A stretch of DNA of 64,000 nucleotides, from assembly GCF_020886695.1 (NCBI RefSeq), contig NZ_AP024485.1, positions 443,001 through 507,000 of the forward strand, written 5' to 3'. The notes beneath the pieces are model-generated. The model was not told the origin of the DNA and made no database searches. It saw nothing but the letters and a program-made list of their open reading frames with translations. This DNA is from Pseudodesulfovibrio sediminis. GTDB lineage: Bacteria; Desulfobacterota; Desulfovibrionia; Desulfovibrionales; Desulfovibrionaceae. Shown in pieces: positions 19,708 to 26,312 of the stretch (positions are counted from its first letter, which is position 1; each line of letters starts with the position of its first letter). The translations under genes were made by a program, and so were the position numbers.

Positions 19708-20805
19708 TTAAGCCTCCATATCCACAATTACCGGTTCGCCTGCCTTGGGCATCCATACCCTGTCCAGTTCCGGGCAGACATCACGCACGGCAGATTCTTC
19801 TGAAGACATGAAGATCATGTCGTCCTTTTCAGCCACCAGCAATGGCCTGAGTTTGATCCGATCATTGAGTCCCATGAGCCTGTTGTTGCTCGCCACCAGG
19901 ATGGCGAACGGCCCGTTGAGCATGGCCGGTCCGTATGTGGCGCGAAGCGTGGTGTAGAGTTCCTTTTCATCCTCGTCCATACGTTCAATTTCATCCCAAA
20001 AAGGCGGAGCAAACACCTTAGCTGCCATTTCCCAGGAAAGACCATGTTTGCGGATGAGCATATCGAGTTCATAGGCCACAACCTCGGTGTCAGTCATCAT
20101 GGTGCACAGGTAGTCGTGCTCACAAAGGTAGCGCCGGTTGATACCGTAGGAAGAAATTTCGCCGTTATGTACTATGGACCAGTTTAAAATGGTGAAAGGA
20201 TGAGCCCCTCCCCACCAGCCCGGTGTATTGGTCGGGAAGCGATTATGGCCGGTCCAGATATACGCTTCATATTCTTCCAGCCGGAAGAATTCAGCGATAT
20301 CTTCAGGAAAACCGACCCCTTTGAAGGCTCCCATGTTCTTGCCGCTGGAGACGACGAACGCGCCGGGAATGGTGGTGTTGATTTTCATGACAACGGCCAC
20401 CACATAATCCTCCTCAGGCAGTTCCCAGAATTCATTGTCCGGATTCTCGGGAACAGTCACGAAATACCGATTGAATCTGGGAGACGTCGGAATAGCCAAT
20501 GTCCGGCGTGTCGGAATCGGTTCGTAGAAATGTAACTCGAAGTATTTCTTGAGCAAGGATTCAGACCCACTGATGGCAGCTGTATCATCACACATCATGT
20601 GAAAGCAGTATTTGTCTGCATGGTCCGGGTAAATGCCATAGGCGGCGAATCCGCCACCCAGCCCGTTACCTCGGTCATGCATGCAGGTCATGGCCTGAAT
20701 GGGCATGTCACCGGAAATCAGACCACGCTTCTTGTTGATGACGCCAAAGACGCCGCAACCGGAAATGTCTTTTTCGAAATCATAATATCTGTCTGGTGCT
20801 TTCAT
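19708..20805 (-). CDS. Class II glutamine amidotransferase subunit of split glutamate synthase
   Basis: This 365-residue Ntn-type amidotransferase is equivalent to the N-terminal domain of GltB. It hydrolyses glutamine to supply ammonia. The probable catalytic nucleophile is Cys17 in ISGCGVFG, which would require removal of a 16-residue propeptide. Other active-site motifs are TGHNRFPTNTPGWWGGAHPF and HNGEISSYG, and the MTDTEVVAYELD stretch. The lone domain must act with the synthase subunit encoded at the start of the operon. Confidence 0.9.
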   Translation of the reverse strand: MKAPDRYYDFEKDISGCGVFGVINKKRGLISGDMPIQAMTCMHDRGNGLGGGFAAYGIYPDHADKYCFHMMCDDTAAISGSESLLKKYFELHFYEPIPTRRTLAIPTSPRFNRYFVTVPENPDNEFWELPEEDYVVAVVMKINTTIPGAFVVSSGKNMGAFKGVGFPEDIAEFFRLEEYEAYIWTGHNRFPTNTPGWWGGAHPFTILNWSIVHNGEISSYGINRRYLCEHDYLCTMMTDTEVVAYELDMLIRKHGLSWEMAAKVFAPPFWDEIERMDEDEKELYTTLRATYGPAMLNGPFAILVASNNRLMGLNDRIKLRPLLVAEKDDMIFMSSEESAVRDVCPELDRVWMPKAGEPVIVDMEA

Positions 20806-20816
20806 TGCGTATCTCT

Positions 20817-22103
20817 TTAGTCGGGGTCAACAACGCCGGGATTCCATGTTTCCTGGAAAAAATCGTCGGGCCACATCAACACATCAGGCTCTCCGGCCAG
20901 GATTTGCTTCTTGGCCCCTTCCGGGACAGCCATCTTGAATTTGACAAAAGCGGTGTACATGCCTGCCATATCAATATCACCCACCAAAACATAGCCCACC
21001 AGGCGATCGTTCTGAAATACGAGCTTGCGATAGCTTTTTTTCTTTTCATCCAGCGACAGGGCTATTTCATAAGAATCATCGCCCTCGGGAGGATTTACCC
21101 GCCCCACTGAAATAGTAGGCAAACCATAAAATGATATTGAATTCATGGACAGGGAACCGGTGAATTCGGTAGCGCAACCAGCCATGTTCTTGCCTGCGCA
21201 AAAGCCCTGATTGTAAGCGTTGGTCCAGATGGGAATGACGCGTTTTTCACCGAACAACAGATCTTTGGCCTGGGCCACATCGCCTGCGGCATACACTCCC
21301 TCGGCGCTGGTGTGCATATGTTCATCCACCCTGATGCCTTGATCCACTTCGATGGCGGCATTTTTGGCAAGATCGTAGTTGGGCACTACGCCGATGGCAA
21401 TCACCACTGCGTCACATTGCAAAAAGTCGCCGTCTGTCAGATGGATCCCTTTGAGTCGGCCATCAGTATCTCGTTGAATGTCCTTGGCTGTTACACCGCA
21501 TCGAACATGAAGCCCCACTTCTTCCAGTCGTTTTCCTGCAAGCGCTGCCGCATTCTCGTCAAAAGCCAGACTCAAAATGCGTGGAGAAAGCTCCAGAATG
21601 GTTACCTCAACCCCTCGATCAAAAAGTGATTCACCTGCTTTGAGGCCGATAAGCCCCCCGCCGATGACAACCGCCCTCTTTATTTCCTTGGCTTTCGATA
21701 TGAGAAGCTGTGTGTGTGTCAGGTTGGTGAAATTATAGACGTCAGCACCATCGGTTCCCGGAATGGACGGTGAAAAAGGAATACCGCCTGTGGCAATGAG
21801 TAAATGCTGAAATTCAACCGTGTCACCCTGGTCGGTCGTTATTGTCTTTGTCGTGGTGTCTATGCCGGTAACCCGCGTACCAAGCATCAGAGAAACATTG
21901 CTTTTTTGATAAAAATCCTGCGGACGAAGGGCTAATCGCTCGGGGCCGATCTTCCCGGCCAACAGGTAGGAGATAAGCGGACGTCCGTAGGCATGGGAGT
22001 CTTCGGCGCCAATAACCAGAATTTCGTTTGTGGTATCGACCTTGCGGATGCCTTCAATGGCACCGATAGAAGCGATTCCGTTCCCGATGATGACGTATTT
22101 CAT
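20817..22103 (-). CDS. FAD-dependent pyridine nucleotide oxidoreductase of the glutamate synthase operon
   Basis: This 428-residue two-dinucleotide-fold flavoprotein starts KYVIIGNGIASIGAIEGIR (FAD loop). It has a second loop VVIGGGLIGLKAGESL for NAD(P)H, the ATG motif LLIATGGIPF and the FAD-binding VYAAGDVAQ. It resembles NADH:rubredoxin or nitrite-reductase-type oxidoreductases more than bacterial GltD, because the cysteine-rich N-terminus of GltD is absent. That role may be filled by the separate ferredoxin subunit encoded next door. The likely job is to pass electrons from NAD(P)H to the ferredoxin subunit and synthase. Confidence 0.82.
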   Translation of the reverse strand: MKYVIIGNGIASIGAIEGIRKVDTTNEILVIGAEDSHAYGRPLISYLLAGKIGPERLALRPQDFYQKSNVSLMLGTRVTGIDTTTKTITTDQGDTVEFQHLLIATGGIPFSPSIPGTDGADVYNFTNLTHTQLLISKAKEIKRAVVIGGGLIGLKAGESLFDRGVEVTILELSPRILSLAFDENAAALAGKRLEEVGLHVRCGVTAKDIQRDTDGRLKGIHLTDGDFLQCDAVVIAIGVVPNYDLAKNAAIEVDQGIRVDEHMHTSAEGVYAAGDVAQAKDLLFGEKRVIPIWTNAYNQGFCAGKNMAGCATEFTGSLSMNSISFYGLPTISVGRVNPPEGDDSYEIALSLDEKKKSYRKLVFQNDRLVGYVLVGDIDMAGMYTAFVKFKMAVPEGAKKQILAGEPDVLMWPDDFFQETWNPGVVDPD

Positions 22104-22113
22104 GGTCTCGTTC

Positions 22114-22560
22114 CTATCGTTCTTCGAATTTTAGTGCCCCATTAGGACACGCTTCCACACAGGCGGGACCGTTCTCGCGCTCAAAACACAAATCACATTT
22201 AACGATCTTATCCTCTGTGGGGTGCCGCCTAATGGCACCGTATGGGCAGGACATGAGACAGGACCAGCAGCCGACACATTTTTCTCTGTCATAGACAGTG
22301 CGCCCTGTTTCCGGGTCTTTGTGCAGGCCACCGGCGATACAGGCCGCCACACAGGCTGGCTCGTCACAATGACGGCAACTTATGGCCACTGAGATGTCTC
22401 CGTTTTCGAATACGCGTTTTCGCGGAGAAAGCCCGTCCTTTCCCCGCTCCTCGCGGAAAGCGATGATCAGATCCTTTGACTTGGAGTGGGATGTAATACA
22501 GGCCAGCTCACAAAGGTGGCAGCCGATACAATATTCTTTATTCGGATAAACTCGTTTCAT
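22114..22560 (-). CDS. Four-cluster ferredoxin-like electron transfer subunit
   Basis: This 148-residue protein has 16 cysteines in four ferredoxin-type groups: CIGCHLCELAC, CRHCDEPACVAAC, CVGCWSCLMSCP and CDLCFERENGPACVEACP. This is the HycB/DmsB/CooF pattern that binds four [4Fe-4S] clusters. It lies 10 bases from the FAD subunit and 12 bases from the synthase gene. It is best read as the electron wire of the split glutamate synthase complex, although such subunits also serve hydrogenases and formate dehydrogenases elsewhere. Confidence 0.88.
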   Translation of the reverse strand: MKRVYPNKEYCIGCHLCELACITSHSKSKDLIIAFREERGKDGLSPRKRVFENGDISVAISCRHCDEPACVAACIAGGLHKDPETGRTVYDREKCVGCWSCLMSCPYGAIRRHPTEDKIVKCDLCFERENGPACVEACPNGALKFEER

Positions 22561-22572
22561 TATGCCCTCTGT

Positions 22573-24102
22573 CTAGCGCCCGGCGTGTTTGATGCCGAGA
22601 ATGTCGAGTTCAGTGTCGGAAATACCCACGCCGCGCAGTTTGTCTCGATTGCCGCGCAGGGATTCGATGGAGTTCAGCCCCATACCTCCGAGCATCTCTT
22701 CAATTTCGTGCCCCCATGCACGAATGAGGTTGGCCATTTTCTTGGCCGCGATATCCGGATTTTGCCGTTTGGACAGCTTGGGGTCATTGGTGGCGATCCC
22801 CCACGGACATTTGCCCGTATAGCACCGTCCGCACAGAGTACACCCCACTGAGATCAGGGTTGCGGTGCCGATATACACGGCGTCGGCACCCAGGGCGATT
22901 GCCTTGACCACGTCACCGGAACAACGGATGCCGCCTGCTGCCACAATGGACACATTGTTGCGGATGCCCTCATCTCTCAGTCGTTGATCCACCTGTGCCA
23001 GAGCAAGCTCGATAGGAATCCCCACATTGTCTCGAATCATGGCCGGGGCAGCTCCAGTACCGCCACGCATTCCGTCAATGGTCACGATATCGGCGCCAGC
23101 CCGGGCGATACCTGAAGCAATGGCGGCCACGTTGTGTACCGCTGCTATCTTGACCGAGACAGGAGCCTTGTATTCGGAGGCCTCTTTCAATGCATAGATA
23201 AGCTGGAGCAAATCCTCGATAGAATAAATATCGTGATGCGGTGCCGGCGAGATGGCGTCTGAGCCAATGGGAATCATCCGGGTTTCAGAGACCTTGTCGT
23301 TGATCTTTTCACCGGGGAGATGACCGCCTATCCCAGGCTTTGCGCCCTGTCCGACTTTGATCTCGATCCCTGCGCCTGCCTTGAGGTAGTCGCGGTGCAC
23401 GCCGAAACGACCGGACGCCACCTGAACAATGGTGTTTGCGCCATACTTATATAATGATTTGTGCAGACCGCCCTCGCCTGTGTTGTAGGCGGTGCCGGTT
23501 TCCGTGGCGGCACGGGCCATGGCGCGGTGAAGATTGAAATTGATGGCACCAAAACTCATGGCTGCGAACATAATGGGAATATCCAATTCAAGTTGCGGTG
23601 TGAGCCGGGTGTTCAATCGGGGTTTTCCGGTTTTCTTGTCGGTCGTGATATCCAACTTGCGGGGCTTGGCCCCGAGGAACGTCTTCAACTCCATGGGCTC
23701 GCGTAGAGGGTCAATTGATGGATTGGTTACCTGGGAGGCATCCAGAAGCATCTGATCCCAATAAACGGGAATATCTACCGGCGAGCCCATGCCTGCCAGA
23801 AGTACACCGCCTGTATCCGCCTGTTTATAGATATTTTGCAGAAAGACCGGTCTCCACAAGCTGTTTGTCCGAAAATCTGATGGTTTGTTGCGTATATTCA
23901 ACGCGTTGGTCGGACAGAGGGCTTCGCATCTATGGCAGCCGATACACTTGGCATTGTCATGCATGACCTTTTGGCGGGCATCATCCCAGAAATGCGCCTC
24001 ATAGGAACATTGCCGGATGCAGACCTTGCAGTTGATGCACAGGTCCGGGTCCCGGTCTATGACGAACTCATGATAGTTCTTGTTGATGGGCTGAAACAGC
24101 AA
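22573..24102 (-). CDS. Archaeal-type glutamate synthase catalytic (FMN) subunit with ferredoxin domain
   Basis: This 509-residue protein has an N-terminal 2x[4Fe-4S] domain (Cys22, 25, 28 and 32; Cys53, 56, 59 and 63) fused to the FMN-binding synthase barrel. Barrel motifs include PIMFAAMSFGAINFNLHRAMA, GQGAKPGIGGHLPGEK, TIDGMRGGTGAAP and GADAVYIGTATL. The VGCTLCGRCYTGKCPWG stretch carries further cluster cysteines. It makes glutamate from 2-oxoglutarate and ammonia. The start is TTG, with GAGG nine bases upstream. No downstream ATG would retain the first cluster motif. It is the first gene of the operon. Confidence 0.9.
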   Translation of the reverse strand: MLFQPINKNYHEFVIDRDPDLCINCKVCIRQCSYEAHFWDDARQKVMHDNAKCIGCHRCEALCPTNALNIRNKPSDFRTNSLWRPVFLQNIYKQADTGGVLLAGMGSPVDIPVYWDQMLLDASQVTNPSIDPLREPMELKTFLGAKPRKLDITTDKKTGKPRLNTRLTPQLELDIPIMFAAMSFGAINFNLHRAMARAATETGTAYNTGEGGLHKSLYKYGANTIVQVASGRFGVHRDYLKAGAGIEIKVGQGAKPGIGGHLPGEKINDKVSETRMIPIGSDAISPAPHHDIYSIEDLLQLIYALKEASEYKAPVSVKIAAVHNVAAIASGIARAGADIVTIDGMRGGTGAAPAMIRDNVGIPIELALAQVDQRLRDEGIRNNVSIVAAGGIRCSGDVVKAIALGADAVYIGTATLISVGCTLCGRCYTGKCPWGIATNDPKLSKRQNPDIAAKKMANLIRAWGHEIEEMLGGMGLNSIESLRGNRDKLRGVGISDTELDILGIKHAGR

Positions 24103-24370
24103 GGTTTGTTACCTCGTATATTGGTTGCCAAAACTTTGATTTATTGAAACAACTTCCCGAAAAGGTGATTTGCTTTTGATAATCCATGAATTTTCACTAT
24201 TTTTTCAGGGGATAACCAAAAAACCACATCTCATTCCTATCTGTCAAGGAAGCAGTTAATCACTCGATATTAAACCCATTTAAATCTGCTCATAGTTATC
24301 GAGCACGCCAGAACCGAGAAAACGCCGTCTTTCCTTGACTTACAACTCCTTTAATAATAAAGAGATTCGC

Positions 24371-24460
24371 ATGAACACGAACCAGAATCGCTTTAGCTTC
24401 TTTTTCTTTTTTAGCTTTCGCTTTTTTAGAAGCGCCTGCGGTTCTGAGGTGTGCATGTAA
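24371..24460 (+). CDS. Phenylalanine-rich leader peptide
   Basis: A 29-codon open frame encoding a peptide with nine phenylalanines, seven of them in the core SFFFFFSFRFF (residues 9-19). An AAAGAGA ribosome site lies about 5 bases upstream of the ATG. Long runs of a single amino acid in a short ORF ahead of a terminator hairpin define attenuator leader peptides, as in pheL of enteric bacteria. The Phe codons fall inside segment 1 of the downstream alternative structures, so a ribosome stalled for lack of Phe-tRNA would disrupt the pause hairpin. No coding role other than sensing is expected. Confidence 0.85.
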   Translation: MNTNQNRFSFFFFFSFRFFRSACGSEVCM

Positions 24461-24515
24461 ACGACAGTAGACTACATACACAACAAGGGCCGTAGGCGTT
24501 AAGCTTACGGCCCTT
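24379..24515 (+). promoter_or_regulatory. Phe-responsive transcription attenuator (segments 1 to 4)
   Basis: Segment 1 (GAACC at 24379-24383, GCTTC at 24396-24400) pairs with segment 2 (GAAGC at 24429-24433, GGTTC at 24440-24444). Segment 2 (24433-24444) can instead pair over 12 positions, including three G-U pairs, with segment 3 (24487-24498), which is the 5' arm of the terminator. Segment 3:4 is the terminator. These are the mutually exclusive pairings of a classical amino-acid attenuator. With Phe-tRNA scarce the ribosome stalls in segment 1, 2:3 forms and transcription continues into the symporter genes. Confidence 0.8.
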
Positions 24516-24522
24516 TTCTTTT
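24485..24522 (+). terminator. Attenuator terminator hairpin
   Basis: A 13-bp stem (24485-24497 with 24503-24515, one G-U pair) with a five-base loop and a T-rich tract interrupted once by C. It lies 25 bases after the leader peptide stop and 48 bases before the first structural gene. Confidence 0.88.
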
Positions 24523-24569
24523 GCGGGTCGAAGTGGATGCCGGGGTCGAAAACGAGAGGGGAATTTGTG

Positions 24570-24704
24570 ATGATGTTGGGTTTTGGAAGTATGGAGATAG
24601 CACTTGCGTTCTGGCTATCCGTCGGTGCGACGGTACTGTGTGTTGTTTATGGACTCTTGAACTGGAACAACAAAGGCAATGATGAACCCGGGGGGGATGC
24701 ATAG
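24570..24704 (+). CDS. Small membrane accessory protein of the symporter, 44 residues
   Basis: A 44-codon frame whose stop is immediately followed by the symporter ATG. A GAGGGG ribosome site lies nine bases upstream; an in-frame GTG three bases before the ATG is an alternative start. The protein is one membrane helix (about residues 8-30) ending VVYGLLNWNNKG, then a short polar tail. Very small proteins with a VVYG..NW motif directly upstream of sodium:solute symporters are annotated in related bacteria as symporter small accessory proteins. I rely on memory of that family for the name. It may stabilise or complete the transporter. Confidence 0.78.
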   Translation: MMLGFGSMEIALAFWLSVGATVLCVVYGLLNWNNKGNDEPGGDA

Positions 24705-26312
24705 ATGGAAGGCAAACTCATCGGCATACTCATTTACTTGGGAGTCATTTTCTTTCTTGGATACAAAGCATGGAAAAAGACCAAGGAATCGACTGATTAC
24801 ATGCTCGCCGGTCGCTCCATGAATCCGTTCGTTCTGGCCATGTCATACGGAGCAACCTTTGTATCCACATCCGCCATTGTGGGGTTTGGCGGCGTGTCCG
24901 GCATGTTTGGCATGTCGTTGCTCTGGCTCACCTTTCTGACCATTTTTGTCGGTGTTTTCATTGCCATGGTCTTTTTTGGCAAGCGGACCCGCCGTATGGG
25001 GCTGGCCCTGAATACGCACACCTTCCCAGAACTGCTGGGAAGGCGCTATAAATCGAAGTTCATCCAGCAGTTCACCGGGGTCGTCATTTTTGTCTTCATC
25101 CCGGTCTATGCCGCTGCCGTGCTTATCGGCATCTGCCGCATGCTTGAAGTGGCTTTTCCGGCGATCAGCTATCATTACTGGCTTATTATCGTCACTGCGA
25201 TTGTTGCCATGTACGTCATTACCGGCGGCTTGAAAGCGGTCATGTATACAGACGCCTTCCAAGGATCCATCATGGCCGTCATGATGCTTATCCTTATGGT
25301 GACTACCTACTCTCTTCTTGGAGGAATGACCGAAGCGCACCAGGCCCTTACGGATATGGTCAACCTGATCCCTGCCAAAATGCTCAAAGGGGGCCTTGTC
25401 AGTTGGACAGAAGGACCAAACTTCAAATCCCCTATCGGCCTGACTGTCTACACCACCATCATTTACGGTGTCGGCATCGGGGTTCTGGCACAGCCTCAAC
25501 TCGCTATCCGCTACATGACCGTGCCCTCAGACCGTGAGCTGAATCGTGCCGTGGCTATCGGCGGTGTCTTTATCCTGCTCATGACCGGCGTGGCATTCAT
25601 CACCGGCGCTCTGTCAAATGTCGTCTTTTTCAATGAATTCGGGAAGATTTCCAGTGTCATGGCCAAAGGTAATTACGACAAAATCATTCCCCTTTATATC
25701 GATAAAATAATGCCGGGATGGTTTTCAGGGCTCTTCCTTGTGGCCATGTTTGCCGCAGCCATGTCCACCATGAGTTCTCAATATCATGTGGGTGGTACAT
25801 CGCTCTCGCGCGACTTTCTGGAACAGTACGTTGAAATTGGCAATGACGGCTCGTCCATGAAGCTGAATCGTCTTGGAGTCACTATCGCCATCATCGCCAC
25901 CCTGATTTGGGCCTGGCTGCTTCCTGAAGGGGTCATCGCACGCGCCACGGCATTCTTTTTTGGTCTGTGTGCAGCCTCGTTCCTGCCCATTTACGTGCTT
26001 GGACTGTATTGGAAGGGCATGACAAAGCTCGGCGCCAAGATATCCATGATCGGTGGATTCTCTTTTTCCATGTTCTGGCTGCTATTCATTCACCTGAAAG
26101 AAGCTGCCCCCATTGGATTGTGTCAGGCTGTGACCGGCAAGGTTACGCTGGTCGCTGATGCCGCGCCCATGTCCTGGTTGTGGCTCATGCAATGGGTGGA
26201 CCCCAATGTGGTCGCCCTGCCCGTCTCCATCATTCTGGCCGTCGGTGCCAGCCTTGCCACTCGACGAATGGAACAGGATCATCTGAATCTGTGCTGGGAC
26301 GGACTCTGTTAA
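24705..26312 (+). CDS. Sodium:solute symporter (SSS family)
   Basis: This 535-residue membrane protein has about 13 hydrophobic segments and SSS family landmarks: DYMLAGRSMNPFVLAMSYGATFVSTSAIVGF near the N-terminus, YVITGGLKAVMYTDAFQG, and FVAMFAAAMSTMSSQ-like sequence (VAMFAAAMSTMSSQYH). These correspond to the core helices of the PutP/PanF/monocarboxylate transporters. The substrate is not readable from the sequence. The preceding Phe attenuator suggests an aromatic amino acid, a related acid, or another compound tied to phenylalanine supply. It begins right at the stop of the small accessory gene and ends at a strong terminator. Confidence 0.9.
   Translation: MEGKLIGILIYLGVIFFLGYKAWKKTKESTDYMLAGRSMNPFVLAMSYGATFVSTSAIVGFGGVSGMFGMSLLWLTFLTIFVGVFIAMVFFGKRTRRMGLALNTHTFPELLGRRYKSKFIQQFTGVVIFVFIPVYAAAVLIGICRMLEVAFPAISYHYWLIIVTAIVAMYVITGGLKAVMYTDAFQGSIMAVMMLILMVTTYSLLGGMTEAHQALTDMVNLIPAKMLKGGLVSWTEGPNFKSPIGLTVYTTIIYGVGIGVLAQPQLAIRYMTVPSDRELNRAVAIGGVFILLMTGVAFITGALSNVVFFNEFGKISSVMAKGNYDKIIPLYIDKIMPGWFSGLFLVAMFAAAMSTMSSQYHVGGTSLSRDFLEQYVEIGNDGSSMKLNRLGVTIAIIATLIWAWLLPEGVIARATAFFFGLCAASFLPIYVLGLYWKGMTKLGAKISMIGGFSFSMFWLLFIHLKEAAPIGLCQAVTGKVTLVADAAPMSWLWLMQWVDPNVVALPVSIILAVGASLATRRMEQDHLNLCWDGLC

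Follow-up and report, generated by a model that had tools for sequence, protein, structure and literature searches.

A symporter operon in the window (the whole stretch of 64,000 nucleotides analysed here, G000:C1:443001-507000 of the 3.76-Mb, single-contig home genome G000) is very probably controlled by a leaderless, ribosome-mediated attenuator that senses charged tRNA-Phe. The operon encodes a small accessory protein and a sodium:solute symporter of the SSS family, which probably imports phenylalanine or tyrosine. This reading draws on the anatomy of the leader, its conservation among related loci, its homology to leaders that stand before genes for ADH synthase (2-amino-3,7-dideoxyheptulosonate synthase), and shifts in the sensing codons of distant relatives. 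On that basis we predict a leaderless transcription start, a switch governed by timing, an aromatic amino acid as substrate, and a response to phenylalanine. The features, all on the plus strand and numbered from the first base of the window, are as follows.

24335..24340, plus strand: -35 box (TTGACT) of the leader promoter; all 28 loci have TTGAC 35-37 nt upstream of the leader ATG
24358..24363, plus strand: -10 element (TAAAGA), after a 17-nt spacer and 7 nt before the ATG; it agrees weakly with TATAAT (3 of 6 positions)
24371..24460, plus strand: leader peptide ORF, 29 aa, stop included; nine Phe codons, with a Phe-rich leader in 28 of 30 compared loci
24383..24401 (24383-24391 and 24396-24401), plus strand: arm 1 of the pause (1:2) hairpin; 83.3% of cells paired, two-sided changes in 7 pairs
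24428..24446, plus strand: arm 2, whose partner is arm 1 (via 24428-24433 and 24438-24446) or arm 3 (via 24431-24444)
24485..24500, plus strand: arm 3, which forms either the terminator with arm 4 (through 24485-24497) or the antiterminator with arm 2 (through 24487-24500)
24503..24522, plus strand: terminator arm 4 (24503-24515) followed by the T-tract; the terminator is paired in 94.3% of cells
24570..24704, plus strand: symporter small accessory protein of 44 aa, matching NCBIfam NF045580 with 52.8 bits (cut-off 35)
24705..26312, plus strand: sodium:solute symporter of the SSS family (PF00474), 535 aa, which probably imports aromatic amino acids
26336..26367, plus strand: intrinsic-terminator-like site 3' of the symporter, from a terminator scan

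A conserved phenylalanine-rich leader

The initial annotation had described a leader of 29 codons with nine for phenylalanine, and we reproduced these counts. The ORF runs from an ATG at 24371 to a TAA at 24458-24460 and encodes MNTNQNRFSFFFFFSFRFFRSACGSEVCM. At least nine Phe codons arose in 1 of 2000 dinucleotide shuffles of this ORF, and at least nine together with the absence of a stop codon in none of the 2000. A 41-aa variant beginning at a TTG was rejected because its start codon is part of the -35 box. Neither Pfam nor NCBIfam holds a family for the leader peptide.

When the symporter was searched for in 98 genomes, 42 gave matches, and the closest named contigs carrying it are Pseudodesulfovibrio. 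Among the best 30 symporter loci, 28 have the Phe leader, the terminator, the NF045580 accessory gene and the SSS symporter, and the accessory ORF lies between leader and symporter in all 28 of these; the two loci without a leader (L024 and L028) stop at contig edges. In one genome whose symporter lies at a contig edge (G020), the leader and accessory gene are found on a separate contig. Across the genus, a leader is present in 31 of 32 genomes with the symporter, counting G009 and G031, which have more distant symporters; the other, G008, could not be judged. The second symporter copies of G009 and G031 lack a recognisable leader. Outside the genus, homologous symporters occur in ten genomes, five with a leader (G041, G047, G055, G067, and G079) and five with none that could be recognised (G048, G050, G054, G062, and G095). 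In 19 loci from named genomes, some of which are the same records, no leader was seen in five (L057-L061).

The 28 genus leaders keep the reading frame and the Phe codons. Each contains 6-10 Phe codons, with an in-frame mean of 8.5 against 3.7 and 3.4 in the other two frames, and together they hold 237 Phe codons (165 TTT and 72 TTC), 12 Tyr, and 1 Trp. Their peptide core near FFFFFSFRFFRSACG is strongly conserved, as might be expected if the ORF encoded a functional small hydrophobic protein followed by an ordinary terminator, with no attenuation at all. We consider such a protein extremely improbable. The core is gone in L027, L029, L030, and the distant loci, yet the aromatic run and the terminator persist there, and the ADH synthase leaders described below have the same layout with a different peptide sequence.

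Mutually exclusive pairings in the leader RNA

The region 24340-24530 (191 nt) folds at -65.8 kcal/mol (z = -6.4), and none of 200 shuffles reached so low an energy. Three pairings had been claimed for it, and each was recovered in some form. The terminator is a helix of 13 pairs between 24485-24497 and 24503-24515 followed by a T-tract, as had been described. The 12-position antiterminator proposed earlier (24433-24444 with 24487-24498) is contained in a longer pairing of 14 positions, G-U counted, between 24431-24444 and 24487-24500. The pause hairpin, placed previously at 24379-24400 with 24429-24444, is present, and its limits are now refined to two helices, 24383-24391 with 24438-24446 and 24396-24401 with 24428-24433. 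The overlapping arm positions agree with the claim that these pairings exclude one another.

A comparison across orthologous loci, which had been suggested with the initial annotation, found the Phe run in 28 of 30 loci and the pairings in 83-94% of alignment cells. The pairing percentages and covariation counts come from an alignment of 28 rows, 27 of them distinct (A1), and the shuffles used to judge the counts ignore the relatedness of the rows. For the terminator, 94.3% of cells are paired, with two-sided changes in 3 pairs (5 of 500 shuffles as high) and in 10 cells (0 of 500); its further pair types number 8, fewer than the shuffle mean of 9.0. The pause hairpin is paired in 83.3% of cells, with two-sided changes in 7 pairs (7 of 500) and 11 cells (0 of 500). 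The antiterminator, paired in 88.0% of cells, shows covariation on A1 that is not above shuffles: a two-sided change occurs once, and 396 of 500 shuffles score at least as high. This pairing is nearly invariant, and therefore covariation decides neither for nor against it.

We also assessed the complementarity of arms 2 and 3 by the duplex energy between the last 60 nt of each leader and the 5' arm of its terminator, taking as the pass mark that no more than 2 of 200 mononucleotide shuffles did as well. The mark was reached by 24 of the 28 symporter loci in the genus, by 6 of the 11 distant ones, and by 20 of the 22 loci with ADH synthase; the scan overlooked the terminators of L030 and L036, which are visible in their sequences. 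RNAalifold favours a local hairpin within arm 2 over the 1:2 pairing. This hairpin, at 24432-24454 of the window (arm 2 and the 3' end of the leader), would compete with both the 1:2 and the 2:3 pairings.

A switch that would depend on timing

In a transcript ending at arm 3 with no ribosome, equilibrium folding gives the 2:3 pairing a mean probability of 0.88 and the 1:2 pairing 0.05. For the full transcript, a ribosome was represented by hiding the RNA up to 12 nt beyond each Phe codon. Pooled over 237 Phe stall positions, the terminator then has a mean probability of 0.82 and the antiterminator 0.10, compared with 0.88 and 0.04 over 545 non-Phe positions, and there are only three loci among the 28 in which the antiterminator mean over Phe stalls exceeds that of the terminator. 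Even with a ribosome mask, therefore, equilibrium folding did not reproduce the switch in the 28 genus loci, and discrimination would have to be kinetic, by timing.

The same calculation is what a constitutive, leaky terminator with an incidental resemblance between arms 2 and 3 would lead one to expect, because in 25 of 28 loci the terminator has the higher equilibrium mean in the full transcript over Phe stalls. We nevertheless regard a leaky terminator as very improbable, since the complementarity of arms 2 and 3 beats shuffles in 24 of 28, 6 of 11, and 20 of 22 loci of the three sets.

Under the attenuation model that we prefer, transcription would start at or next to the leader AUG, and the mRNA, being leaderless, would take up a ribosome at its 5' end. 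With ample charged tRNA-Phe, the ribosome would pass the Phe codons and reach the stop codon, arms 1 and 2 would pair, and arm 3 would be left free for arm 4, so that transcription ends there. During a shortage of charged tRNA-Phe, the ribosome would instead stall at codons 10-14 and mask arm 1; the 2:3 pairing would then form before arm 4 is made, allowing transcription of the accessory protein and symporter genes.

Promoter position and a predicted leaderless start

The promoter is conserved in both sequence and placement. Across the 28 genus loci, TTGAC lies 36 nt (19 loci), 35 nt (six), or 37 nt (three) before the leader ATG, and at the 17-nt spacing T is present in 93% and A in 86%. When these loci are aligned on TTGAC, the upstream DNA is near background, with a mean of 0.14 bits per column 5' of the -35 box; the conserved exceptions are TTGAC itself (with a C just 5' of it in 96%), the bases that follow the box, and the TA at the 17-nt spacing. 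Similar placement recurs elsewhere, with TTGAC at 35-37 nt in 8 of 11 distant symporter loci and in 16 of 22 ADH synthase loci, or 21 of 22 if 35-40 nt is allowed. Among the distant loci, L054 (37 nt) and L056 (36 nt) fit this spacing when translation is taken to begin at an in-frame ATG 21 nt farther upstream; L034 lacks TTGAC at the expected distance before its leader ATG. A generic promoter scan of the window did not list the leader promoter, so the case for it rests on conservation.

The gap between the -10 position and the leader ATG is 6-8 nt, which places the expected start of transcription on or beside the A of the ATG. The leader mRNA is thus probably leaderless, because the -35 box lies 35-37 nt from the ATG in 28 of 28 loci and because Shine-Dalgarno-like matches, even by a loose definition, are rare (4 of 28 genus symporter, 1 of 11 distant symporter, and 3 of 22 ADH synthase loci). 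Our findings support the earlier reading of this region as an attenuator and add to it the leaderless leader mRNA, a prediction from promoter position that was absent from that reading.

On the other side of the promoter, a divergent glutamate-synthase-like cluster occupies 19708-24102 of the window on the minus strand, its first gene starting about 270 bases upstream of the leader. It encodes a class-II amidotransferase domain, a pyridine nucleotide-disulphide oxidoreductase, a 4Fe-4S protein, and a protein with Fer4 and Glu_synthase domains.

Homologous leaders before aromatic biosynthesis genes

A covariance model built from the symporter leaders (R1) was searched in the home genome, where its top match is the symporter leader itself (167.1 bits), which is in the model by construction. 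The second match (81.6 bits) is a Phe-rich leader, MHNITARFFFFFSYYFRNACGLGVH, before a lone ADH synthase gene whose product matches TIGR01949 at 389.7 bits (cut-off 299.45). This second, lone ADH synthase behind a Phe leader (L086 1501-1644; G000:C1:813494-813637) is a possible Phe-controlled isozyme of the first aromatic step. The third match (37.5 bits) is a Phe/Tyr/Trp leader, MNTTSSNAYFSNYYFGYWFSRARGLGRGAV, before another ADH synthase, followed by genes for 3-dehydroquinate synthase II and a prephenate dehydratase with a chorismate mutase domain. The same aro operon continues with aroA-like, prephenate dehydrogenase-like, and trp-like genes, the aroA and trp names being our reading of the translations and the prephenate dehydrogenase falling under model cut-offs. 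The whole (L098/L087; G000:C1:3502000-3513200, minus strand) resembles an operon running from ADH synthase through pheA-like and tyrA-like to trp-like genes behind one mixed leader.

Six weaker R1 matches in the home genome (L088-L091, L093, and L094) were judged by eye to be chance terminators and set aside, and matches near E = 0.1 are thus not specific. Over the 98 relatives, R1 matched 91 genomes at E <=0.1, a threshold that also admits plain terminators. We examined 20 of the non-symporter matches, chosen by hand rather than at random, and all 20 have an aromatic-rich leader with an ADH synthase homologue just downstream (tblastn, 57-89% identity, full length). In a wider search of 297 genomes of the phylum at 1e-6, R1 matched 12, G000 included. 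Eight of the 11 new loci have an ADH synthase homologue behind the match (seven in the same family and one, L165, in another), and tblastn found none behind the other three (L170, L172, and L173, all in other families). L165 (G283), which lies outside the order of the window's organism, has an aromatic-rich leader and terminator before its ADH synthase homologue, and L173 (G379) has an aromatic-rich short ORF (RFFYFSGY) and a terminator before a gene that is not an ADH synthase. Searching simply for runs of four Phe codons did not discriminate, giving 80 matches against 91 in a backward control.

Rfam release 15 gave nothing above the gathering score in the window or in five related loci, the best sub-threshold score in the window being 26.6 bits for the trpB motif, which requires 59. 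The leader, whose exclusive pairings the initial annotation likened to those of pheL-type attenuators, thus falls in no Rfam family at threshold; the relatives of this leader are those preceding ADH synthase. Our best reading is that the attenuator belongs to an aromatic leader family and regulon of the Desulfovibrionales, one branch of which would control a probable Na+-coupled importer of Phe/Tyr.

Proposed retuning of the sensing codons

Among the 11 distant symporter loci that bear leaders, eight leaders are Phe-rich (L031, L034, L035, L037, L039, L040, L053, and L055), one is Phe/Tyr (L036), and two, from the Halodesulfovibrio loci L054 and L056, contain ...MNSYFYAYYGYRV..., with five Tyr codons and one Phe. 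In the leaders of L031 and L053 two adjacent Trp codons come after the Phe run (FIFTSPVAWWCSLA), and a second sensed amino acid is possible there. The symporter itself is duplicated in tandem in Halodesulfovibrio L054 (1086-2714 and 3480-5102) and at G055:C7:73229-76530.

A quick maximum-likelihood tree of the symporters comprised 53 rows, with L028 (a fragment) and L062 (remote) left out. One side of it holds 39 leader-bearing symporters, one tandem second copy, which we chose to group with the leader-bearing rows, and L024, whose locus stops at a contig edge; 12 leader-less rows fall outside, across a branch of modest support (SH-aLRT 80). The simplest account of this distribution would be that the leader was gained once and its sensing codons were then retuned.

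The transporter and its probable substrate

Both gene products said to lie downstream, a 44-residue protein and an SSS symporter, exceed the cut-offs of their models, NF045580 and PF00474, the latter with 182.9 bits against a Pfam cut-off of 22.8. The NCBIfam equivalogs assign no solute, with the symporter scoring 192.4 against 515.5 for PutP and 174 against 328.05 for PanF, and all ten matching NCBIfam models under cut-off. By sequence, its nearest solved structure is a sodium/glucose cotransporter.

The leader offers another route to the substrate. Leaders of the same family precede ADH synthase and the aro-pheA-tyrA-trp operon, and the symporter therefore most likely takes up Phe, or both Phe and Tyr, in a Na+-coupled manner. 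An aromatic substrate had been proposed from the Phe leader; two findings strengthen that proposal, namely the shifts from Phe to Tyr codons in distant homologues and the presence of homologous leaders upstream of ADH synthase and of the aro operon. Phe codons alone are no proof of a Phe-specific product, since the lone ADH synthase also has a Phe-rich leader.

It could be that the attenuator is real and the symporter takes up a precursor or another aromatic compound, such as phenylpyruvate, phenylacetate, or a shikimate-like molecule. SSS proteins carry many types of solute, so the family, like the NCBIfam scores, leaves room for such a substrate. The leader family also stands before the first enzyme of the common pathway, and its regulon is therefore wider than end-product genes. 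A common-pathway precursor would, on the other hand, predict Trp codons, which many ADH synthase leaders outside the genus do mix with Phe and Tyr; the 28 genus symporter leaders have a single Trp among their 237 Phe and 12 Tyr codons, and two distant leaders are Tyr-rich, although L031 and L053 do carry two Trp each. We therefore hold a precursor or other aromatic substrate to be doubtful, if well worth keeping in mind. The balance tips toward Phe/Tyr import, which is favoured by Phe and Tyr codons with few Trp, by the Phe-to-Tyr shift, and by a leader family shared with aromatic biosynthesis.

A broader evolutionary reading seems to us evenly poised. An ancestral leaderless cassette of promoter, leader, and terminator, standing before ADH synthase in the Desulfovibrionales, may have been duplicated onto a transporter, after which its sensing codons would have changed (Phe/Tyr/Trp, Phe, Phe/Tyr, Tyr) along with the function under control. 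If so, the codons would reveal what is carried by an SSS sub-group that had no earlier assignment: it would import Phe/Tyr with Na+ and have a small accessory subunit.

Comparison with known systems

In regard to its mechanism, leader-peptide attenuation through Phe codons is already known. What look new here are the control of a transporter, the homologues of the leader before ADH synthase, the retuning of codons, and the predicted leaderless start. In the open-access full-text literature we found no report of an attenuator before this symporter, which is weak evidence of absence; most subscription journals lie outside that scope. Our findings suggest that regulation alone can yield a testable substrate class for an uncharacterised sodium symporter. 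They also indicate an attenuation-controlled regulon for aromatic amino acids in bacteria that use the ADH synthase route, and they provide a natural series in which one attenuator has sensing codons that shift among Phe, Tyr, and mixtures.

The classical counterparts are the pheL and pheM attenuators of enterobacteria, which act on pheA and pheST. They likewise combine a short Phe-rich ORF with a pause hairpin, an antiterminator, and a U-tract terminator. The present system differs in its symporter target, its predicted leaderless mRNA, and its lack of an Rfam match at threshold, and the pheA of the home genome sits instead in the aro operon behind a mixed F/Y/W leader. Closer relatives are the ADH synthase leaders of the Desulfovibrionales, which share the layout, have a similar terminator sequence, and mostly have the same promoter position, but precede an enzyme and, outside the genus, mostly mix Phe, Tyr, and Trp. 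As for the transporter, the nearest known type is an SSS symporter (PF00474) accompanied by a small accessory protein (NF045580), and both models match here.

Leader-peptide attenuators for pheA and other genes are described in PMC2659441. For the predicted start, the nearest parallel is the trpL RNA of Sinorhizobium meliloti, which, according to PMC7298713 and PMC10117765, begins with the ATG of the leader ORF. It thus has a leaderless leader peptide, as we predict here, though it is alphaproteobacterial, senses Trp, and controls trpE(G). A title cited in PMC4046766 states that the ilvBNC leader peptide of Corynebacterium glutamicum forms without a ribosome binding site, and the same article describes a putative aromatic leader with Phe-Tyr-Phe before aroF; as presented there, these leaders differ from ours in having biosynthetic targets and in belonging to another phylum. 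Mycobacterial polycysteine leaderless ORFs are likewise amino-acid-responsive attenuators, going by a title cited in PMC13236596, and would also be leaderless short ORFs, responding to Cys instead. If the leaderless start predicted here is correct, leaderless leader peptides, as described for Sinorhizobium and, going by cited titles, for Corynebacterium and mycobacteria, would extend to the Desulfobacterota.
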